IMG/VR virus record: IMGVR_UViG_3300008462_000391
Coordinates: 1-34,821 of that record
DNA: 34,821 nt
Direction: 5' to 3' (one strand)
Source: a virus
How positions within the stretch are numbered: the stretch's first letter is position 1; each line of letters starts with the position of its first letter. Shown piece after piece: positions 450-34,821 of this stretch. Made by a program: the position numbers and the translations under genes. The notes beneath the pieces are model-generated. The model saw nothing but the letters and a program-made list of their open reading frames with translations, searched no databases and was not told the DNA's origin.

Positions 450-2420
450 ATGCAGGACTACAAGAACATCATCGCGGCGGTCGCGCTGCATTATTTCGGT
501 CTGCCCAACAACTCACTGTCGACGCCCGACAAGGAGCTGCGCTTTGGCACGCATGGCAGCAAGTCGGTCGACCTGGTCAAAGGCACCTGGTTCGACCATG
601 AAGCAAATGTCGGCGGCGGGGCTGCCGACCTGATCAAATACATGGAGCCAACCGCATCGGTCGTCGACCGGCTTGAACAGTTCGGGATGCCGAAGGCCGA
701 GAAGATCGAGCGCCGCGAGACCGTCTACGATTACACCGACCAGGACGGCGCGATCCGCTACCAGGTGATCCGCATCGACGACAAGAACGGCAAGACCTAT
801 CGGCAGCGGCGCATCGATGAGGCCACCGGCCAGCCCATGTGGGGCATGGCAGGCGTCACAGCCCTGCCCTACAGGCTGCATGAGCTGGCAGCCTCCACGC
901 AGCCGGTGTTCATTTGCGAGGGCGAAAAGGCTGCCGATGCGGTGGCGCGTCTCGGCCTGATCGCCACCACTAATCATGGCGGCGCGACCAAGTGGTGGCC
1001 CCCGCTCACCGAGCATTTCCGTGGCCGCCAGGTCATCATCCTGCCCGACAACGACGAGCCAGGCGAGCGTCACGCCAGGACCGTGGCGGACAGTCTCACC
1101 GGCACCGCAAAGTCGATCCGCATCCTGCGCCTGCCAGGCTTGCCCAAGAAGGGCGACGTGGTCGATTGGTTGATCGATGGCGGCACGCGCGATCAGCTCA
1201 CCGAGCTGGTGAAGCAGACGCCGATCTATGATCCGCTGCAGGCGGAACCGCTGCCGCCGGAGCCGGTGGCGACCGAGCGCCAGGCGACCATCGATGCGAC
1301 CCCGTTCCGCGCGATGGACCCGAGGCAAATCCCGGTGCGTCGGTTCATCTATGGCACGCATTACATCCGCAAGTTCGTCAGCTTGGACGTCGCGCCAGGC
1401 GGCGTCGGCAAGTCGACCCTGGTGATTGCCGAGGCTCTCGCCATCGCCAGCGGCAAGACCATCCTGGGCGAGCGGGTCCATGAGCGCGGTCGCGTTTGGT
1501 ACTTCAACGGCGAAGACCCCATGGACGAGATCAACCGGCGCGTCGTCGCGACCATGGCCTATCACCGCATCACGCCAGAGGACATCGGCGACAACTTGTT
1601 TCTCGACAGCGGCCGATCGCAGCCGATCGTGGTCGGCGTGCAGACCAGGGACGGCGCGCTGATCCAGGAGCCTGTGGTCGAGGCCGTGGTCGACGCCATC
1701 CGCCGCCACAAGATCGATGTGATGACGCTCGACCCCTTCGTCTCGACCCATCAGGTCAGCGAGAACGACAACAACGCCATCGAGCGGGTCGCCAAGACCT
1801 GGTCGCACATCGCCGATCTCACCGGCTGCAGCATCAACCTGGTGCATCACAGCCGCAAGACAGGCGGCAATGAGGTCAGCGTCGAGGATGGCCGAGGCGC
1901 GTCAGCCCTCGCCTCCGCAGCGAGATCAGCTCGAGCCTTCAATCAGATGACAGACGCCGAGGCGACAAAGGCAGGCGTCGACAACCGCCGATCCTATTTC
2001 CGCGTCGACAATGGCAAGGCCAACCTCGCCCCGCCATCGGACAAGGCGACCTGGTATCACCTGGTCGGCGTGCCGCTCGGCAATGGACCAGGCGGCACAG
2101 ATGGTGACGTCGTCGGCGTCGTCACGCAATGGGAATGGCCGGACCCGCTCGCCGATGTCTCGGTCGATATGCTGCGGGCTGCGCAGCGAGCCGTCCAGGC
2201 AGGCGGACCATGGCGCGCCGACACCCAGGCAAAGGATTGGGTCGGGCATCCCATCGGCCGCGCGATCAAGGTCGACACGACATCGAAAGCCGGCAAAGCG
2301 AAGGTCGCTGCGCTGATCAAGACATGGACCGCGACCGGGATGTTCATCGAGGTCGAAGGCAAGGACAGCAAGCGGATGCCGCGCACCTTCATCGAGGTCG
2401 GAGAGTTCGCGACAGACTGA
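450..2420 (+). CDS. Primase-helicase: TOPRIM domain fused to RepA-type AAA ATPase
   Basis: This 656-residue cytoplasmic replication protein should make primers and unwind DNA at the phage fork. The N-terminal part (about 1-130) resembles the region ahead of phage TOPRIM domains. The TOPRIM signature is FICEGEKAADA near residue 154, followed by ILPDNDEPGE near 197. The C-terminal half is a RecA-like hexameric helicase of the RepA (AAA_25) type: Walker A APGGVGKST near 315-323, Walker B IDVMTLDPF near 422-430, and LVHHSRK near 464. No N-terminal zinc-finger cysteines are seen. The start ATG at 450 has only a weak ribosome site; no better in-frame start precedes the conserved part. It is the only helicase in the genome and no polymerase accompanies it, so a host polymerase is presumably used. 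Confidence 0.88.
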   Translation: MQDYKNIIAAVALHYFGLPNNSLSTPDKELRFGTHGSKSVDLVKGTWFDHEANVGGGAADLIKYMEPTASVVDRLEQFGMPKAEKIERRETVYDYTDQDGAIRYQVIRIDDKNGKTYRQRRIDEATGQPMWGMAGVTALPYRLHELAASTQPVFICEGEKAADAVARLGLIATTNHGGATKWWPPLTEHFRGRQVIILPDNDEPGERHARTVADSLTGTAKSIRILRLPGLPKKGDVVDWLIDGGTRDQLTELVKQTPIYDPLQAEPLPPEPVATERQATIDATPFRAMDPRQIPVRRFIYGTHYIRKFVSLDVAPGGVGKSTLVIAEALAIASGKTILGERVHERGRVWYFNGEDPMDEINRRVVATMAYHRITPEDIGDNLFLDSGRSQPIVVGVQTRDGALIQEPVVEAVVDAIRRHKIDVMTLDPFVSTHQVSENDNNAIERVAKTWSHIADLTGCSINLVHHSRKTGGNEVSVEDGRGASALASAARSARAFNQMTDAEATKAGVDNRRSYFRVDNGKANLAPPSDKATWYHLVGVPLGNGPGGTDGDVVGVVTQWEWPDPLADVSVDMLRAAQRAVQAGGPWRADTQAKDWVGHPIGRAIKVDTTSKAGKAKVAALIKTWTATGMFIEVEGKDSKRMPRTFIEVGEFATD

Positions 2421-2553
2421 TCTGCCACACCTTTGAAGGTGTGGCGGGGCAACGTGTGGCAGGTGTGGCAAATGCCCTGCCACACCACCACCCCTATAGG
2501 GGTGTGGGGTGGGGCGTGGCACGGCGGGGCATGGCAAGTGGGGTGTGGCAAAG
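2421..2553. other. Repeat-dense intergenic region, candidate replication origin
   Basis: The gap between two replication genes is filled with copies of GGTGTGGCA in both orientations. Forward copies lie at 2438, 2454, 2462 and 2542, degenerate forward copies at 2514 and 2529, and reverse copies (TGCCACACC) at 2423 and 2478. They form three consecutive dyads: 2424-2445 (10-bp arms), 2462-2486 (9-bp arms, 7-base spacer) and 2489-2504 (a perfect 16-base palindrome centred on CTATAG). There is no T-tract after any stem, so simple terminators are unlikely. Iteron-like repeats beside a RepA-type helicase and an initiator-like protein are typical of theta origins. The assignment to an origin is inference. 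An AT-rich unwinding stretch is not evident. Confidence 0.5.
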
Positions 2554-3132
2554 ATGAGAAGCAAACAGGGCGTCGCGCCCAAACCGGAGAAGCCCGACCA
2601 ATGGTCGATCAGGTCGAGCGGTGATTGGATCACCCACGACATCATGCAGTCGGTGCTGTGGGACTATGACCACAAGATCATCGAGGTCGAGAAGGTGTGG
2701 GGCGTCGACCGTTTGCCGTACCTGGTCAGCGACGAGACCAGGCGCAAATGGTGGCGGGCCGTCGATGCGCTGAACCAGGCGATCCATGACGGCGATGCGG
2801 ACAAGGTGCGACGCCTGGTCGACAACCTGGTCATCGGCATCGACCGACTTGTTGTTGAGGCGCAAGGCCTCGGCGCTCACCCTCTTGCCGCCGACATATG
2901 GCAGACGCCGCTCGAGGATGGGCGGACACTGCAGATCGTCAGGACGTGGCCTGAGAGGGCGTACAGGGCCGACAAAGACCCGAATGTGGTCACCTATACC
3001 CTGGAAGAGATCGGCCGTCTGGTGGCGTCCCTGCCCCTCCTGAACGCGGTCAAGAAGCAATGGCCTGGCGCGACCGTCGAGAAGCCGATCTCGCCCCTAT
3101 CAAAGGAGCTGAACGATGACATCCCGTTTTGA
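2554..3132 (+). CDS. Unknown phage protein ending in an SSB-like DDIPF tip
   Basis: This 192-residue protein has no catalytic motif I recognise. It has a conserved-looking stretch (KVWGVDRLPYLVSDETRRKWWRA around residues 48-70), then alpha-helical segments, and a proline-bearing tail. The last residues, KELNDDIPF, match the acidic C-terminal tip by which bacterial SSB recruits partner proteins. The tip codons (3112-3129) overlap the start of the next gene at 3116. A GTG start at 2509 is possible but lies inside the repeat array, so the ATG at 2554 is preferred even though its ribosome site is weak. Its position between the primase-helicase and an initiator-like protein suggests a replication accessory factor that docks on SSB partners, or that competes with SSB for them. 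Confidence 0.65.
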   Translation: MRSKQGVAPKPEKPDQWSIRSSGDWITHDIMQSVLWDYDHKIIEVEKVWGVDRLPYLVSDETRRKWWRAVDALNQAIHDGDADKVRRLVDNLVIGIDRLVVEAQGLGAHPLAADIWQTPLEDGRTLQIVRTWPERAYRADKDPNVVTYTLEEIGRLVASLPLLNAVKKQWPGATVEKPISPLSKELNDDIPF

Positions 3133-3859
3133 TCAACCCGGTGAGAAGCGACCGTTCTGTGTGGTGCCGGTGAGGTGCCTCGCCGACAAAAAGATGAAGG
3201 ACACCGACCGCCGAGTGTTGGGCGCTCTCGGCCATTTCGCCAACCGGGCTGGCGTATGCTGGCCGTCCGTCAGGACATTGGCCGATGTCTCAGGCGTCGA
3301 GAACAATACGGTCATGGCGTCGGTCGACCGGCTTATCGATGCGGGATATGTCCGCCAGCTCAACCCGAACGACTATGACCAGAAGGCCGGCAAGTGGGGT
3401 CACTCGAACCGCTACCAGCTTCTGTGGCGAGGTGACGAGCCTGTGCCGACCTGGGAAGAAGTGCGGGACGCGAACCTGTTGCAGCCCATAGAGGACCGAG
3501 ACATCACGACAGAAGGATCGGGCGCGCGAGGGACGGTCGTCGATCACATAGATACTCGCAAGCACGTCGAGGCCTTCCGCGCTGGCGTCGAGGCGGCTGC
3601 CGGCTGGCGACCGGCCGAGGTGGCGGCGGGTCCGGCGATGGCCCTGGCCGAGGCAGGCGTTGATCCGACGGCGACCAGGCGGCAGGCCGAGGCAATGACC
3701 AGGGCGCTGGCCGCCGAGAGGCGCGGCGTGCCGAGTTTCGCGGAGGTTTCGGCCGTCTTGTTGGCCGGTGTACAAACGTCAAACGTCCGTGAGTCTGTTG
3801 TACAAGCGCCAAAACAGGGGAAGGAACGCGCAAAAAGTGGGGCAAGCGCACCAAAATGA
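3116..3859 (+). CDS. Winged-helix replication-initiator-like protein
   Basis: The protein has 247 residues. Residues 18-90 (DRRVLGALGHFANRAGVCWPSVRTLADVSGVENNTVMASVDRLIDAGYV) form a classic helix-turn-helix of the type found in phage and plasmid initiators and DnaD-like helicase-loading proteins, in which a cell-growth or replication gene reads a wHTH before a variable C-terminal part. The C-terminal part is Ala/Arg-rich, with GVDPTATRRQAEAMTRALAAERRG helical. The start is clear: AAGGAG lies seven bases before ATG 3116, overlapping the previous gene by 17 bases. The 3' end carries two copies of the dispersed motif (3770 and 3800), which encode QTSNV and QAPKQ in this frame. A function at the neighbouring candidate origin is inferred; a transcriptional regulator is the alternative. 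Confidence 0.7.
   Translation: MTSRFDQPGEKRPFCVVPVRCLADKKMKDTDRRVLGALGHFANRAGVCWPSVRTLADVSGVENNTVMASVDRLIDAGYVRQLNPNDYDQKAGKWGHSNRYQLLWRGDEPVPTWEEVRDANLLQPIEDRDITTEGSGARGTVVDHIDTRKHVEAFRAGVEAAAGWRPAEVAAGPAMALAEAGVDPTATRRQAEAMTRALAAERRGVPSFAEVSAVLLAGVQTSNVRESVVQAPKQGKERAKSGASAPK
3770..3788 (+). repeat. Dispersed motif, copy 1
   Basis: GTACAAACGTCAAACGTCC lies inside the 3' end of the winged-helix gene. It matches the consensus GTACAAACGNCAAACG completely and starts exactly 30 bases before copy 2. Confidence 0.7.
3800..3818 (+). repeat. Dispersed motif, copy 2
   Basis: GTACAAGCGCCAAAACAGG is preceded by TT, making the core TTGTACAA. It has two differences from the consensus and is in tandem with copy 1 at a 30-base (about three helical turns) spacing. 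Confidence 0.6.
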
Positions 3860-5496: not shown

Positions 5497-5882
5497 TCGA
5501 CTGCCTCATCATCGGGGATAGCATCGGCGTTGGCATCGCGCCTTACACACCGTGCAAGGTGACGGCTCAAGTTGGTCGTGCAACGTCGACGCAGGCAGCG
5601 ATCATCAAGCGCGTCAGCGCGGATCACGTTATCATCTCGCTTGGCAGCAATGATCCGTTTGATCCGGAGTTGTTGCGCAATTTGCGGAAGGTACGCGCAA
5701 GTACAAACGCCAAACGTGTGACCTGGATTGTCCCATATCACTCTTATGCGGGCGGCGCGGTTCGGCGCGTTGCTGACGCATTTGGCGATGAGATGGTTGA
5801 GCTTCGCGCTTTCAAGACAAAAGACGGCGTGCATCCGGCGAACTATCGCGGCGTGGCTGATGACGCGATGAGGAAAGAATGA
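5493..5882 (+). CDS. Small SGNH/GDSL-type hydrolase
   Basis: This 129-residue protein contains the complete SGNH signature: block I IIGDSIGVG with nucleophile Ser10, block III SLGSNDP with Asn53, and block V DGVHP with Asp111 and His114. SGNH enzymes are esterases or acylhydrolases using a Ser-His-Asp triad. At 129 residues this is a minimal version of a fold usually 180-250 residues long. No signal peptide is present, so it acts in the cytoplasm or within the virion. Possible roles include deacylation of surface polysaccharide or modification of a cell-wall precursor; the substrate cannot be read from sequence. Start and stop overlap the neighbours as ATGA. One strong copy of the dispersed motif lies inside it at 5701. 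Confidence 0.75.
   Translation: MIDCLIIGDSIGVGIAPYTPCKVTAQVGRATSTQAAIIKRVSADHVIISLGSNDPFDPELLRNLRKVRASTNAKRVTWIVPYHSYAGGAVRRVADAFGDEMVELRAFKTKDGVHPANYRGVADDAMRKE
5701..5720 (+). repeat. Dispersed motif, copy 5
   Basis: GTACAAACGCCAAACGTGTG is a perfect match to the GTACAAACGNCAAACG core. It lies within the SGNH hydrolase gene, 178 bases before the next start. Confidence 0.7.
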
Positions 5883-6490
5883 AGCTGGCTGCGTGCAACG
5901 GCAAACGCATCAAAGACATGACGCGCGCCGACATGATCAAGGCTCTCGAGCAAATGAACAACAGCTATCGCGCAATTGCGCGGCTGCAGATGGGTGATGA
6001 GCTGCCGGTGTTCAACTGGTCAATGGAAGAAGCAGATCGACGGCTTGCTGAAATCGCGCAGGGCGCAATGAGCAAAGCTTGTCGGAACTTTGGGGAACGT
6101 GTGATGCAGACGATTGAACACGAATTGCGCGAAAAGATCGCGTTGTTGGAAGAAGAGAATATCCAGTTGCGCAAGGCGCTGATGCCTCTTGAGAACCCAT
6201 TTGTGAAGCTTGATCTGACGCCGCAACAGCGCGCGTTGCTGAACGCTCTCTACATCAGGGAGGTTGCGTCGCACGAATACGTTGAACGCGTTTTGAGCGA
6301 ATGGGCGCAGATGGATCGCGGCGACCCGTGCGACGGAGATATGTATTCTCGGGCTAAGGTTGCGATCTTTAAGCTTCGCAAGCGAATGAAGCCTCATGGT
6401 GTTAAGATAAGGACCATTCACTCCACCGGCTACTTCATCGACGGCGAAGGCAAGGCGCGCTTGAAGGAGATCATCAGTGGCACGCACTAA
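5879..6490 (+). CDS. Coiled-coil plus OmpR-type winged-helix protein
   Basis: This 203-residue protein has an N-terminal helical part, a long coiled coil (about 75-103: TIEHELREKIALLEEENIQLRKAL), and a C-terminal domain from about 112. There LTPQQRALLNALY ... SRAKVAIFKLRKRMKPHGVKIRTIHSTGYFI follows the OmpR/PhoB effector fold, in which the recognition helix precedes a beta-hairpin ending in GYxI. The receiver domain of response regulators is absent. The gene starts in an ATGA overlap and ends inside the start of the terminase large subunit. That position and a TerS-like protein lacking an HTH make a role in DNA recognition for packaging plausible. A late-gene regulator is the main alternative. 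Confidence 0.65.
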   Translation: MKLAACNGKRIKDMTRADMIKALEQMNNSYRAIARLQMGDELPVFNWSMEEADRRLAEIAQGAMSKACRNFGERVMQTIEHELREKIALLEEENIQLRKALMPLENPFVKLDLTPQQRALLNALYIREVASHEYVERVLSEWAQMDRGDPCDGDMYSRAKVAIFKLRKRMKPHGVKIRTIHSTGYFIDGEGKARLKEIISGTH

Positions 6491-14563: not shown

Positions 14564-16543
14564 ATGCAGATTATCGCGCTTCAGAACGACTTCACCACAG
14601 GGGAAATGGACCCCAAGCTGCGTGCGCGTTCTGACATCGACCAGTATCGGAGTGGTCTAGCAAAGGCCACTAACGTGACCGTCCAGCCGCAAGGCGGGGC
14701 GAAGCGCCGCCCTGGCACGCGATACATCGCGTCCCTCCCCGCGAACCTTGCGAGCCAGGGCGTGCGCATGGTTCCTTTCGAGTTCTCGACGACGACAAGC
14801 TATATGCTGGTCTTTGTGCCTGGCCGTATGTACGTCTTCAAAGACGGCGCGCTGGTAACCAATATCAATAGCAGCGGCAACGACTATCTTGCCATTGCTG
14901 GCATCACTGCATCAATCATCCCAGAGATGTGCTGGACGCAGAGCTACGACACGCTGATTGTCGTGCATCAAGATTTGCAGCCTCTGAAAATCTTCCGAGG
15001 CGGAAACGACACGACATGGACGGCGTCAACACTGTCGTTTGACTTCATCCCAAAATATGCGTTCACAGTAACGACGACAAGTGGATCGGCAAGCATCACA
15101 CCATCTGCAACAACCGGAAACATTAAGATCACATCGGCGTCGTCGATCTTCTCCGCGTCGGACGTGAACCAATATATTGTCGGCACGACAGCCTTCGGCC
15201 GCGCACGCATCATTGACTACGTCAGCGGCACCGAAGTGCGCGCTCGCGTCACCGTGCCGTTCTTCAACACTGACCGCCTATCAAGCGGGACGTGGGAGTT
15301 TGAGCGCGGATATGAAGATGCTTGGTCGTCGGCTCGCGGATGGCCCAGGACTGTTGGTTTCTATCAGGGGCGTCTATTCTTTGGCGGGTCTAAGTCTCTT
15401 CCATCGACGGTGTGGGGTTCTGTCGTCGGCAATTATTTTGACTTCAATCCAGGTGAAGGCCTGGCCGATGAGTCGGTCGAAGCCACAACAGACACCGGCC
15501 AGTACAACGCAATCGTCGATATGTATCCAGGCCGCGCGCTCCAGGTTTTTACAACTGGCGCTGAGTTCTTCGTCCCGCAGCCAAGCGATGATCCGATCAC
15601 GCCTGGCACATTCTTCTTGCGCGTTCAGACGCAGAATGGTGCAAGGCCTGGCGTTCGCGTTGTAAACGTCGAGGGCGGTACGCTTTTTATTCAGCGTCAG
15701 GGCAAGGCGCTGCAGGAGATGATCTACCTCAACACGGAGGCGGCGTTCACTGCAGCAAAGATTTCACTGTTGTCGTCTCATCTCTTGAAAGAGCCGAGCG
15801 AGATGGCGGTGCGCAAAGCAACGTCAACTGATGAAGGCGACCGGCTTCTCGTTGTCAACGACACCGATGGATCAATCGCGTGCTACACTTTGCTGCGCTC
15901 TCAAAAGGTCATTGCACCAAGCGAGTGGACGACAGATGGCAGTTTCATCTCGATTGGTGTCGACATCAGCGACGCTTATGCCGTTGTCAAGCGAACGACG
16001 GGTGGGAGCGATGTCTACTACGTCGAGCTATTCGAAGAAGAACTCACGCTTGATTGTTCAAAGCAGGCAACAGTCGCATCGTCAACCGCTAGTGTAAGCG
16101 GTTTGTCCTATCTAAACGGCCGCAGTGTCAAGGTGGTGCGCGACGGCGTCCTCGAGGCTGATAAGACTGTGGCAAGCGGATCGCTGTCTTTCACGCGCGC
16201 CGCAACGTCAAGCTATCAGATCGGCCTGACATTCACGCCGCTGATCAAGACACTGCCTCCTGCGCCGCGTATGCAAAGCGGCTCGATCCGTGGATCAAAG
16301 AAGCGCGTCTATGACATCATCCTCGATCTGTTTGAGACGCAGGACATCACGGTGCAGGGTCGTCAGATCGCGTTCCGCAACTTTGGGACGTCCGTCCTGG
16401 ATCAGCCGATTGATGAATACACGGGTCTCAAGAAGATCGAGAACTTGCTTGGATATGATCGCGAAGGCGCGATCACGATCACCCAGACGGTGCCTCTGCA
16501 GATGACCGTCTTGGGGATCGAATACAAAATATCGGTGGGGTAA
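14564..16543 (+). CDS. Tail tubular protein B-like (tail nozzle)
   Basis: This 659-residue protein begins with the family's characteristic opening, LQNDFTTGEMDPKLRARSDIDQYRSGLAKATNVTVQPQGGAKRRPGTRYI, followed by beta-rich repeats. The middle includes WPRTVGFYQGRLFFGGSKSLPSTVWGS and RQGKALQEMIY, typical of gp12-like nozzle proteins. Six copies form the distal tail tube, holding the fibres and closing the channel. The length is somewhat below T7 gp12 (794). The C-terminal region has DIILDLFETQDITVQG, also typical. Confidence 0.9.
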   Translation: MQIIALQNDFTTGEMDPKLRARSDIDQYRSGLAKATNVTVQPQGGAKRRPGTRYIASLPANLASQGVRMVPFEFSTTTSYMLVFVPGRMYVFKDGALVTNINSSGNDYLAIAGITASIIPEMCWTQSYDTLIVVHQDLQPLKIFRGGNDTTWTASTLSFDFIPKYAFTVTTTSGSASITPSATTGNIKITSASSIFSASDVNQYIVGTTAFGRARIIDYVSGTEVRARVTVPFFNTDRLSSGTWEFERGYEDAWSSARGWPRTVGFYQGRLFFGGSKSLPSTVWGSVVGNYFDFNPGEGLADESVEATTDTGQYNAIVDMYPGRALQVFTTGAEFFVPQPSDDPITPGTFFLRVQTQNGARPGVRVVNVEGGTLFIQRQGKALQEMIYLNTEAAFTAAKISLLSSHLLKEPSEMAVRKATSTDEGDRLLVVNDTDGSIACYTLLRSQKVIAPSEWTTDGSFISIGVDISDAYAVVKRTTGGSDVYYVELFEEELTLDCSKQATVASSTASVSGLSYLNGRSVKVVRDGVLEADKTVASGSLSFTRAATSSYQIGLTFTPLIKTLPPAPRMQSGSIRGSKKRVYDIILDLFETQDITVQGRQIAFRNFGTSVLDQPIDEYTGLKKIENLLGYDREGAITITQTVPLQMTVLGIEYKISVG

Positions 16544-30465: not shown

Positions 30466-31428
30466 TTACGCTGTACTCAGATCTTTGATCTCAAGTGTTT
30501 TAAGCCTCACCTGGTACGCCTCCTTTGCAGGCTGCGTCTTTGCAGGCTGCGCCTTGTATTTTCGGATGGGCCAGCGCACCCGGTACTGGTGCCCGTCGTC
30601 GTCGGTGACGATGCCCTCGGTGTGGTTGCCAAGCATCTCCATGAGAGCGGCGCTGGCTGCCTCTAGCGTGGCCTCTGACGCCTTGATCACCTCGCGGGCG
30701 GTGAGGATATCGTCGACCAGCGCAGCGGCGTCAGCGCCCAGCGTAACGGGCGGCGCGTCTTCCTCGGCCGTGGCCCAAGTTCTCGCTGCGTCGGCCGCGC
30801 TGACCGGCGGATACCAATCAGGGCCAAGCTTCCGCCGCTCAAACTGGGTGACCGCATCAGTGATCTGATCATGCACCGCCTGCAGCTTTGGGTAGACAAA
30901 GACCCGCATCTCGATGCCACGATACAAAACGCACACCGCGCCCCAGTTGAAGCCGGTGCACATCATGCAGCCCTGAAGCTGGATCGGCCCGCGATAGGCG
31001 GCCGGCTCATCTTCCGGCGCGCTCTGGGTCAGCTTGCTCTCAAGGATACCAGGTCCGTCGACTATTACGCTGTCGGCGCCAAGGACATAGATGCCGCGCT
31101 CGGGATCGGTGACGATCTCGAACGGCTCGCCGACCGGGTGGCCGATGCCGTCGACCGATGCATTCAGCTTAATGCCTGGCGCGGTGAAGGGCACCGTCGG
31201 ACACTCAAGCATGACGCCGAGGCGCGTGGCCGCCTCCTCCAGGATCATGCGCTCCATGCGGTCACCCCACCTGGTCGCCTCGTTCCCGTTCCAGGTCGAG
31301 GTCTTTCCGGCCATGGCATCGATGGTCTTTGCCAGCTCATCATTGGGCGTCGACCAGGGCGACAGCCCCATGACAGCCGGCAGGCGTGAGCATGACAGCT
31401 CTGTGTCTGGTGTGAGTTTACCCACCAT
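30466..31428 (-). CDS. YqaJ/lambda-exonuclease-type recombination nuclease
   Basis: This 320-residue protein is of the PD-(D/E)XK superfamily: TELSCSRLPAVMGLSPWSTP near the N-terminus, a conserved Glu in GDRMERMI (about 59), Asp93 in NASVDGIG, ILESKL with Glu130 and Lys132, and YRGPIQLQG with Gln150. This is the motif order of YqaJ-type viral exonucleases, which resect double-stranded ends to give 3' tails for annealing. A cognate annealing protein is not obvious; the SSB-like protein could serve. The start is ATG 31428, with AGGAGGG seven bases upstream on the - strand, rather than 31452. It lies one base from the stop of a small upstream gene. Confidence 0.82.
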   Translation of the reverse strand: MVGKLTPDTELSCSRLPAVMGLSPWSTPNDELAKTIDAMAGKTSTWNGNEATRWGDRMERMILEEAATRLGVMLECPTVPFTAPGIKLNASVDGIGHPVGEPFEIVTDPERGIYVLGADSVIVDGPGILESKLTQSAPEDEPAAYRGPIQLQGCMMCTGFNWGAVCVLYRGIEMRVFVYPKLQAVHDQITDAVTQFERRKLGPDWYPPVSAADAARTWATAEEDAPPVTLGADAAALVDDILTAREVIKASEATLEAASAALMEMLGNHTEGIVTDDDGHQYRVRWPIRKYKAQPAKTQPAKEAYQVRLKTLEIKDLSTA

Positions 31429-31429
31429 G

Positions 31430-31597
31430 TCACTGCCCTCCTGCCACGACAAGGTCGAGGATTGCAGCCACAGACATCACAACATATGCTGTGCCGAACA
31501 GTGCCACGACGGCGACAACGTCGCAGACGCGACACAATATGTTGTGTTTGTTGCGCCATGTGACACAATATTGATTATGCGAATGGAACCTACTCAT
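31430..31597 (-). CDS. 55-residue membrane protein upstream of the exonuclease
   Basis: This is a short frame with a strong ribosome site: AGGAGG five bases before ATG at 31597. It encodes MSRFHSHNQYCVTWRNKHN, then LCRVCDVVAVVALFGTAYVVM, a single hydrophobic helix, and ends in AGGQ. The stop lies one base before the exonuclease start, so translation is probably coupled. Four residues are Cys or His near the membrane, but no known family is recognised. It contains three related palindrome-like repeats (near 31478, 31532 and 31563), which may be sequence coincidence or an operator embedded in the gene. A leader peptide or small anti-host membrane protein are possible. Confidence 0.65.
   Translation of the reverse strand: MSRFHSHNQYCVTWRNKHNILCRVCDVVAVVALFGTAYVVMSVAAILDLVVAGGQ
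31478..31573. repeat. Three CACAA(C/T)AT-type dyads
   Basis: CACAACATATGCTGTG (31478-31493, one mismatch), ACACAATATGTTGTGT (31532-31547, 6-bp perfect arms) and ACACAATATTG (31563-31573, half site) share a core. The second and third are about 31 bases apart. They could be repressor operators for the leftward operon, but all lie within a likely coding sequence. Confidence 0.4.
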
Positions 31598-32400: not shown

Positions 32401-33081
32401 TTACTTACCCTCCATCCGCACACAATAATTGCGTACCGTTGAAGCGAACCATTCTCCGCCGCGTGCCGTCGCAACGCCGCGCGCATTGAGCGCCTCGGCC
32501 AGCTCGCGATAGGTCGACAGACCCTTGCGGCGCAGATCACGGATGATCGGCATGACATTCTCGGCAAAGTTGTCGGCCTTCTCGGCCGCCACCTTGCCGG
32601 CAAAGTCAGCGGCACGCTTGGGGTCGGGGCTGCCCAACTTGACGCCGCGCTTTTTGGCGGCTGCCAGCGCCGCTTTGGTGCGCTCGCTGATCAGCTCGGC
32701 CTCATGCTCGGCGACACCGGCCAAGATATGGATGGTCAGCTTACTGGCATGAGGATTGTCGACACAGACAAAGTCGACGCGGTCATGCATCAGCTTGGCG
32801 ACAAAGTAGGCGTTGCGATACAAGCGGTCGAGCTTGGCAACAATGAGCGTTGCCTTCTGCTTTTTGGCAAGCGCAATGGCGGCCTCAAGCTGCGGGCGCC
32901 GTGACCGGCGGCCGCTCTCCACTTCAGTTAACTCACCGACCAGCGTCCAGGTGCCGCCGTTCAAGTAGCGGCGCACCGCGTCTTGCTGTGCCTCAAGGCC
33001 GAGACCTGACTTGCCCTGCTTGTCCGTCGACACGCGGTAGTAGGCAACATATTTGCCATTGTGCGGCTTGCCTGCGGTCAT
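32401..33081 (-). CDS. Serine recombinase of the resolvase/invertase family
   Basis: This 226-residue protein has an N-terminal catalytic domain with YYRVSTDKQ, nucleophile Ser18 and Arg16, followed by GLGLEAQQDAVRRYL, the conserved SGRRSRRPQLEAAIALAKKQKATLIVAKLDRLYRN, and HILAGVAEHEAELISERTKAALAAAKKRG. A short C-terminal region (about 180-226) with a Tyr-rich helix and TYRELAEALNARGVATARGGEWFASTV resembles a HTH-like DNA-binding domain. The size matches resolvases and invertases rather than large serine integrases (450-600). Start ATG 33081 has GAAGGGA eight bases upstream on the - strand. It could resolve multimers, invert a segment, or integrate the phage. Confidence 0.85.
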   Translation of the reverse strand: MTAGKPHNGKYVAYYRVSTDKQGKSGLGLEAQQDAVRRYLNGGTWTLVGELTEVESGRRSRRPQLEAAIALAKKQKATLIVAKLDRLYRNAYFVAKLMHDRVDFVCVDNPHASKLTIHILAGVAEHEAELISERTKAALAAAKKRGVKLGSPDPKRAADFAGKVAAEKADNFAENVMPIIRDLRRKGLSTYRELAEALNARGVATARGGEWFASTVRNYCVRMEGK

Positions 33082-33123
33082 TGGTCCAATCCCTTCGATT
33101 GCTATCTGTACGCTATCTAATCG

Positions 33124-33141
33124 ATACAAGAGCCAAACGTC
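33124..33141 (+). repeat. Degenerate copy of the dispersed motif
   Basis: ATACAAGAGCCAAACGTC has three or four differences from the consensus and overlaps the stop of the leftward gene at 33140. It faces away from the recombinase; low weight. Confidence 0.35.
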
Positions 33142-33484
33142 AAGTGCCCTGCTCCGTTTGCGCATCGTGCAGATCGGCGACGAAGCCGGACAAGCGCGGC
33201 GCAGGCCAGCGATTGCCTTGCAACCCATGATCATTGGGGCGCAGCCAGATGCGGCCGGTGTCAGGGAAATAATAAAGCGCCGCCGCCCATTGTTGTTTTG
33301 AAAATGGGAAGACAACCAAAACACCGCGAATTATCCAATAATTCCGATCATAATGACGCGCCTCACATTGCCGCGTGCGCCCCTCAAAAGTGACATCTAG
33401 CACGCCGTCAACGTGACCGAATTGCTGGCAGAACGGTGACTGGGTTTCGTCTGGGGTGAAGGTCTCAATGTAAATACGCACCAT
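33140..33484 (-). CDS. Unknown protein at the head of the leftward block
   Basis: This 114-residue protein has a strand-rich part (MVRIYIETFTPDE, then HVDGVLDVTFEGRTRQCEARHYDRNYWIIRGVLVVF) and an aromatic middle (WAAALYYFPDTGRIWL). No family is recognised. The start at 33484 has GGAGGG seven bases upstream on the - strand and is preferred over 33499. Its stop lies 58 bases before the recombinase start. Confidence 0.55.
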   Translation of the reverse strand: MVRIYIETFTPDETQSPFCQQFGHVDGVLDVTFEGRTRQCEARHYDRNYWIIRGVLVVFPFSKQQWAAALYYFPDTGRIWLRPNDHGLQGNRWPAPRLSGFVADLHDAQTEQGT

Positions 33485-33883: not shown

Positions 33884-34116
33884 CAACGGCCGAACGCCTC
33901 GCGCTCACCTTCCGCGACGCCATCAACGATGAGGTTGAGTTGTACCTCAACACGGTGATCGATGAGCGTGGCGATATCCACGAAGCACTTGAGCTTTCGA
34001 CGGCGATCTTGTTGGGCATCACGTCTCGCGTCGCATCCAAGCGCGTAGATCGCCGTCGTTTCCTGCATTGCTGCGACAAGTCCTGGGACATCTTTGTCGA
34101 GAGGCGAGACGTCTGA
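33880..34116 (+). CDS. Small unknown protein
   Basis: This 78-residue helical, acidic protein (FRDAINDEVELYLNTVIDERGDIHEALELSTAILLGITSRVA) is rich in basic residues near the C-terminus (KRVDRRRFLHCCDKSWD). The ATGA start and TGATG stop overlaps make it part of the early operon with the RHH-like and RuvC-like genes. No family is recognised. Confidence 0.55.
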   Translation: MTTAERLALTFRDAINDEVELYLNTVIDERGDIHEALELSTAILLGITSRVASKRVDRRRFLHCCDKSWDIFVERRDV

Positions 34117-34583
34117 TGAAAGTCTGCGGCATCGACCCCGGCATCAATGGCGCGCTCGCGTTCTTCGACACGCTGCGCGGCGAAGTTCTCATCATCGATA
34201 TGCCGACCGGCGTCGTCGAGCGCAACGGCAAGGCGAAGCGAGAGATCTCGGCGGCGATGATCGCGGCCGTGTTGCAAACGCACCGGCCCGACGTCGCGTT
34301 CATCGAGCGCGTCGGCGCAATGCCTGGTCAAGGCCTGTCGTCGACCTGGTCATTCGCGATGGGCGTTGGGCAACTCGTCGGCGTCCTGGCGGCGCTCGAG
34401 ATCGAGACGCACTGGGTGGCGCCCCGCGTTTGGCAGAAGGCCTGCGATATGCGCGGCGGAAAAGACGGCGGCCGCCTGCGCGCAGCCGAACTCATGCCCG
34501 CAGCGGCGGGGCAATTCGCAAGAGCAAAAGACAATGGCCGCAGCGATGCGGCGCTGATCGCCTGGTACGGGGCGACACGGTGA
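34116..34583 (+). CDS. RuvC-like Holliday junction resolvase
   Basis: This 155-residue protein has the RNase H-fold signature of RuvC: MKVCGIDPGINGALAFFD with Asp7, FIERVGAMPGQG with Glu64, then GKDGGRLRAAELMPAAA and KDNGRSDAALIAWYG, with acidic residues at 139 and 144 giving the C-terminal metal ligands. RuvC cleaves four-way junctions in replicating or recombining DNA. It fits the exonuclease and SSB-like proteins as part of a recombination-dependent replication or packaging pathway. The start at 34116 is coupled to the upstream stop (TGATG), and the length is close to cellular RuvC (173). Confidence 0.85.
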   Translation: MKVCGIDPGINGALAFFDTLRGEVLIIDMPTGVVERNGKAKREISAAMIAAVLQTHRPDVAFIERVGAMPGQGLSSTWSFAMGVGQLVGVLAALEIETHWVAPRVWQKACDMRGGKDGGRLRAAELMPAAAGQFARAKDNGRSDAALIAWYGATR

Positions 34584-34632: not shown

Positions 34633-34821
34633 ATGAGCATTCTCAACATCAACAACGGCGGCAGCGGCGGAAACTACATTCGCTTCATGCCATCGGCGAA
34701 CGCCTGGGTCTTCAACAAGGATGAGACCGCGCTCGACGTCGTCGTCTTCGATCACGACACGGTCAAGACCGGCTGGGGCAAGATGAGCGAAGGCAACCCG
34801 CCGGAATGGCAGTGGGATGAG
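34633..34821 (+). CDS. ssDNA-binding-like protein, N-terminal part (continues at base 1)
   Basis: These are the first 63 residues of the protein that ends at base 393. The opening MSILNINNGGSGGNYIRFMPS, followed by WVFNKDETALDVVVFDHDTVKTGWGKMSEGNPPEWQWDE, matches the N-terminal part of small phage ssDNA-binding-like proteins. AAAAGG precedes the ATG. The ORF has no stop before the end of the window, and the last codon is complete, so it joins exactly to frame 1. The full protein would be 193 residues. Confidence 0.7.
   Translation, partial: MSILNINNGGSGGNYIRFMPSANAWVFNKDETALDVVVFDHDTVKTGWGKMSEGNPPEWQWDE

Follow-up and report, generated by a model that had tools for sequence, protein, structure and literature searches.

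Covariation links the winged helix of a RepA-like phage primase-helicase to the repeat words of its probable replication origin

The window, by which we mean the whole analyzed stretch of viral DNA (34,821 nt), codes for terminase, portal, head-tail connector, and tail proteins, a whole-phage gene set. No tRNA was found in it. Positions 34633-34821 join positions 1-393 in frame to give one 193-aa protein, and homologues of this protein are intact in the related loci L001 (84%) and L021 (68%). This makes it probable that the 34.8-kb genome is complete, and that it is circular or circularly permuted. Genes for a serine recombinase (32401-33324, minus strand), a YqaJ/RecE-like exonuclease (30466-31452, minus strand), and a RuvC-like resolvase (34068-34583, plus strand) make a temperate or plasmid-like lifestyle plausible.

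Gene 450-2420 (plus strand) encodes a RepA-like primase-helicase of 656 aa, the proposed initiator. It consists of a Toprim-like part, an AAA_25/RSF1010-RepA-like motor, and a C-terminal winged helix. The protein matches PHROG DNA primase/helicase families and Pfam AAA_25; its Pfam Toprim match reached 22.9 bits, below the cut-off of 27.2. The best Foldseek matches of a 386-residue model (pLDDT 94) were structures of RSF1010 RepA (1nlf, E 2e-14; 1g8y, E 4e-14). AlphaFold2 confidently predicted the winged helix at residues 582-656 (positions 2193-2417, plus strand; pLDDT 88), with helices and a wing hairpin of strands 632-638 and 644-650, which would make residues 639-643 the wing-tip loop. Fold matches of this domain were weak (winged helices of RecQ, MukF, and PadR; best Z 5.5) and indicate the fold class only, and a PDB sequence search found no relative of it. 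Behind the array described below lie a small open reading frame (2554-3132), which belongs to no known family and for which homologues were found in 11 of the 145 loci with arrays, and a gene for a helix-turn-helix (HTH) protein (3116-3859), which starts 560 bp downstream of the array and matches O-like/initiator PHROG families and HTH_36.

The gap between the helicase stop codon and the ATG at 2554 is occupied by an iteron-like array (2421-2553), the proposed replication origin. Eight matches to GGTGTGGC/GCCACACC with at most one mismatch lie in both orientations around a 16-bp palindrome. The word GTGTGGCA is present on the plus strand at 2454-2461, 2463-2470, and 2543-2550 (GGTGTGGC match starts 2453, 2462, and 2542), the last copy directly before the ATG, and on the minus strand, read as TGCCACAC, at 2423-2430 and 2478-2485 (GGTGTGGC/GCCACACC match starts 2424 and 2479). 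The plus-strand copy GTGTGGCG is located at 2439-2446 (match start 2438), and the degenerate plus-strand copies GTGTGGGG and GTGGGGCG at 2502-2509 and 2509-2516 (match starts 2501 and 2508). The exact palindrome CACCCCTATAGGGGTG at 2489-2504 is the putative central hairpin element. The array center reads CCCCTATAGGGG, and pattern scans found the palindrome core CACC[A/C]CCCCTATAGGGG again in other contigs.

Exact GTGTGGCA/TGCCACAC occurs five times in 34.8 kb, every time within the array. The best-word score of the array was 6.2, compared to a mean of 2.1 and a maximum of 3.4 in dinucleotide-preserving shuffles, none of which (0/300) reached the array. When the whole window was scanned, the two top grid windows overlapped the array (4.8 and 4.4), and the best score elsewhere was 3.2. 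An earlier note had described eight copies in two orientations with a 16-base palindrome, had called them the densest structural repeat of the genome, and had placed them beside a RepA-type helicase. The site count and the exact palindrome confirm the first of these points; the shuffles, and the lack of any other stretch in 34.8 kb that comes close, bear out the second; and the neighboring gene does encode an AAA_25 ATPase of the RepA type that includes a Toprim-like primase part. The positions given in that note are also correct. Tandem Repeats Finder did not list the array, because its copies are dispersed and inverted. No promoter or terminator overlapped the array, and its region contained neither a T-run terminator nor a promoter-like site. 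A clear AT-rich melting element was not found in the window, and an Rfam search of the array returned no family, with one sub-threshold chance match.

Since the isolated-phage collection has few close relatives, these were gathered by protein-based scans of viral contigs, by pattern scans, and from plasmids and bacterial genomes. Only two records of the isolated-phage collection match a typical member (L064) of the helicase group at E 1e-20 or better, and the group seems to be nearly absent from cultured phages. A scan of genome contigs gave a single distant relative. Absence of the repeats from relatives had been named in the earlier note as an argument against an origin; what we found was that relatives keep the array and change its words. 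In L001, with a helicase 89% identical, the array lies at the same place and is built on GGTGGCGCA instead of GGTGTGGCA, and in a 42% relative the array word is TGATGCA. The L001-type word is GTGGCGCA. Among 157 loci, we counted 54 distinct words, mostly of the form [G/C]TG-NN-G[C/A]A.

The word cluster lies directly 3' of the helicase stop codon in most loci; among 145 loci chosen because an array lies downstream, the first word was found at most 40 nt from the stop codon in 141. Words in the same orientation are mostly spaced by 8-11 bp. Where words converge, a hairpin often lies between them. With gaps of 21-60 nt, stems averaged 6.3 bp compared to 3.7 bp in shuffles and reached at least 6 bp in 52 of 79 cases; stem sequences range from GC-rich to AT-rich. 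Array polarity was as in the window in 112 of the 145 loci, reversed relative to the helicase gene in 26 (e.g., L009, L026, L154, and L206), and undecided in 7. The reversed arrays suggest that array function is independent of the direction of transcription. A few relatives had no array in the flanks covered (e.g., L006, L028, and L357). Arrays were also seen behind or near the 3' end of more distant primase/helicase genes, in L007 (approximately 5690-5890; Rhizobium phage RHph_Y3_1) and L008 (approximately 6060-6140). Their words are quite different (CGTTCCCA/TGGGAACG; GCTAAAG/TTAGCA), and word arrays behind helicases may therefore extend beyond the helicase family of the window.

Each word position was then compared, in an unbiased scan of 103 loci, with 369 helicase alignment columns without prior choice; words were called and oriented from the DNA alone. 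The signal of base 1 was strongest at residue 593, that of base 5 at residues 643 and 641, and that of base 7 at residue 642, with the next-best columns giving about half the signal or less. Base 4 pointed weakly to residue 643, and the remaining bases hardly vary among these loci. The corresponding residues of the window protein are Q593 (codon 2226-2228, plus strand) and K641-R642-M643 at the wing tip (codons 2370-2378, plus strand). In the combined set of 157 loci, R642 was accompanied by C7 in 119/120 cases and other residues at this position in 5/37. Q593 occurred with G1 (86/89) and R593 with C1 (56/60), and H643 occurred with C5 (22/22) and M643 with G5 (26/32). For K643 and R643, base 5 is ambiguous.

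Independent changes were counted on a tree restricted to the ATPase columns, with the C-terminal columns left out. This tree requires 67 or more changes of the full word. Independent pairs changed in the predicted direction at ratios of approximately 9:0 for base 1, 8:0 for base 7, 10:0 for C5 with K/H643, and 9:0 for G5 with M/N/E/D643. Simple rules for A5 (R or Q at 643) and for base 4 were not significant on the same tree; residues 643 and 641 both contribute to base 4, and no clean rule was found for decoding it. Distant proteins sharing a word had the same residue 593 in 92% and the same residue 642 in 88% of the comparisons; for different words, the values were 43% and 57%. Both the array architecture and the residue-base covariation are thus shown computationally.

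The rules were fixed before the test loci were fetched. These 38 new loci each had a clear array and shared no more than 90% identity with the training set. The rules gave the right base at word position 1 in 33/36 loci, at position 5 in 24/29, and at position 7 in 35/38; for some residues, the base-5 rules permit two bases. Guessing from the nearest relative gave 24/36, 9/29, and 26/38, and the shuffled means were 17, 12, and 26, respectively. Misses include wings carrying an extra residue. The rules were also obeyed in loci lacking a strong array directly behind the gene, for which the best word cluster within approximately 3 kb was taken after inspection: base 1 was correct in 18/19, base 5 in 16/19, and base 7 in 18/19 loci, with arrays up to 2.7 kb from the gene. 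This second test used a slightly wider base-5 rule (Q to A; K whatever the residue at 642), two arrays start within the end of the gene, and some proteins are similar to training proteins; it is therefore supportive and less than fully independent.

Some pairs of close relatives indicate that the proposed reading domain is rapidly replaced or exchanged. In L147/L229, the motors are 99% and the winged helices 44% identical, and the words are CTGGAGCA/CTGCCGCA; in L168/L170, the values are 99% and 65%, with the words CTGGCGCA/CTGATGCA. Different words were also found in L148/L173 (motor 100%, winged helix 54%) and L069/L070 (98% and 74%).

Since residues of the winged helix predict the repeat word, the helicase, rather than the HTH protein of gene 3116-3859, is the likely reader of the array. 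The earlier note had suggested the HTH protein as binder, and this part of its proposal is not borne out: among the 145 array loci, with flanks of a few kilobases, an HTH homologue was present only in the window itself. The other part, an iteron-like origin, still explains the data best, and its support has grown considerably. We consider it very probable, judging from sequence comparison, that the array is the replication origin of the phage (or phage-plasmid) and that the upstream RepA-like primase-helicase is its own initiator, the winged helix of which reads GTGTGGCA. As in iteron-type origins, several copies of one short word are clustered beside an initiator gene, and covariation together with held-out prediction points to recognition of the word by the element's own initiator.

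We strongly infer that the winged helix (582-656) binds the repeated word directly. Bases 5 and 7 would be read by the wing-tip residues 641-643, and base 1 by residue 593, which lies immediately before the first helix. For the origin function, which we infer, several subunits would align on words approximately 8-11 bp apart on both sides of the central hairpin. More speculatively, the aligned subunits could place the hexameric helicase ring at the array, and the Toprim-like primase could begin synthesis near the hairpin. Word and wing would change together in evolution, providing related elements with private origins.

Plasmids carrying the gene and the array were searched for three other initiator families. 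In the circular plasmids pR24_3 and Rhodoplanes plasmid 1, no RP-C, Rep_3, or RPA was found; RepC of a Microvirga plasmid was detected and served as positive control. In pVL1_6, there was a sub-threshold RP-C match only (L100, approximately 15289-15402; 344-aa open frame), and this frame is possibly a divergent second initiator. GC skew, a check named in the earlier note, did not locate the origin consistently; in the Microvirga plasmid with RepC, the minimum was near repC.

Covariation indicates recognition and says nothing on its purpose. The array read by the helicase might therefore be an operator or serve control in another way (autoregulation, copy-number control, or handcuffing), with replication starting elsewhere, and iterons can indeed also serve control in known plasmids. 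We regard this as unlikely: the array follows the helicase gene, occurs in both polarities, and is sometimes 0.2-2.7 kb off, which is ill-suited to an operator of that gene, and its region showed no promoter-like site. Lambda-O-like binding of the array by the HTH protein, with the helicase merely recruited, would fit the initiator-like matches of this protein and its position close to the array. It is highly improbable given that, in flanks of a few kilobases, its homologue was found beside a single array of 145, that of the window, and that the word follows helicase residues. We give equally little credence to hitch-hiking, in which wing residues and words would be passed on jointly as linked parts of one module that make no contact. 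Most arrays are indeed a few hundred base pairs or less from the gene, and module exchange clearly occurs; however, the residue-base pairing recurs in independent changes and in distant proteins sharing a word, beats the nearest-relative guess in held-out data, and holds in displaced arrays, and linkage would not pick out the wing tip. Finally, although dyads and a GC-rich hairpin follow the stop codon, a role of the array at the RNA level, as terminator, attenuator, or stabilizing hairpins of the mRNA, is very unlikely, since there is no T-run or Rfam family, direct copies outside the hairpins change with the word, polarity is reversed in 26/145 loci, and words follow protein residues.

The proposed origin reading by the helicase itself can be compared with known systems. 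The alpha protein of P4 has another helicase type, whereas the motor here is RSF1010-RepA/RecA-like, and the words differ. Like the window protein (PHROG, AAA_25, and AlphaFold2 results), P4 alpha unites primase, helicase, and winged helix, which binds origin repeats (PMC4234260); its DNA-binding domain was not among the fold matches listed for our winged helix. RSF1010 shares the RepA motor fold as well as iterons and priming hairpins at the origin. There, the iterons are read by a separate protein, RepC (PMC4234260), whereas the helicase of the window carries the proposed reading domain in its own chain, and matches to RSF1010-like plasmid RepA end before the winged helix. The pRN1 protein Orf904 is a primase-helicase with a C-terminal winged helix and an essential origin just downstream of its gene (PMC4234260), an arrangement like that of the window. 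In contrast to the window, it has an archaeo-eukaryotic primase, and the origin is a large stem-loop without iterons.

An Escherichia coli PICI was shown experimentally to replicate from an iteron-containing origin directly 3' of its pri-rep gene (PMC6092414). SaPI/PICI elements resemble the window in this placement and in having two iteron sets around a central element. The PICI center is AT-rich, whereas here it is often a GC-rich hairpin, ranging from GC-rich to AT-rich in relatives, and these elements are satellites without their own full virion gene set, unlike the whole phage of the window. In Vibrio cholerae PLE, the DNA-binding domain of RepA and ori covary as exchangeable modules, and the phage nuclease Odn attacks ori (PMC8263062). 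The module covariation is similar to that described here, but the initiator belongs to the RepA_N family, only two variants exist, and no base-to-residue code was reported.

Self-initiating primase-helicases with 3' iterons are thus a known kind. As far as the open-access literature that we searched shows, there is no earlier report of a RepA-type helicase class as origin reader or of such a base-to-residue code. Initiator-origin pairs were known to covary as whole modules; here, single bases and residues are resolved over more than 50 natural words, and the comparison includes near-identical helicases differing mainly in reading domain and word. Origin recognition by a replicative helicase thereby becomes testable through point mutations, and the rules offer a sequence-based route to origins in uncultured phages and plasmids. 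The arrays are a source of mutually independent origins, and their rapidly changing words call for an explanation. The turnover could be driven, by analogy, by origin-directed nuclease pressure, as in PLE, or by avoided interference between co-resident relatives. There is, in our estimation, an even chance that in a class of mostly uncultured phages and plasmids the helicase winged helix reads the origin by a nearly one-residue-per-base code, with fast turnover keeping origins private. If this is true, origin specificity would be predictable from sequence and perhaps reprogrammable, and the turnover would fit selection for private origins as a protection from relatives or origin-directed nucleases.
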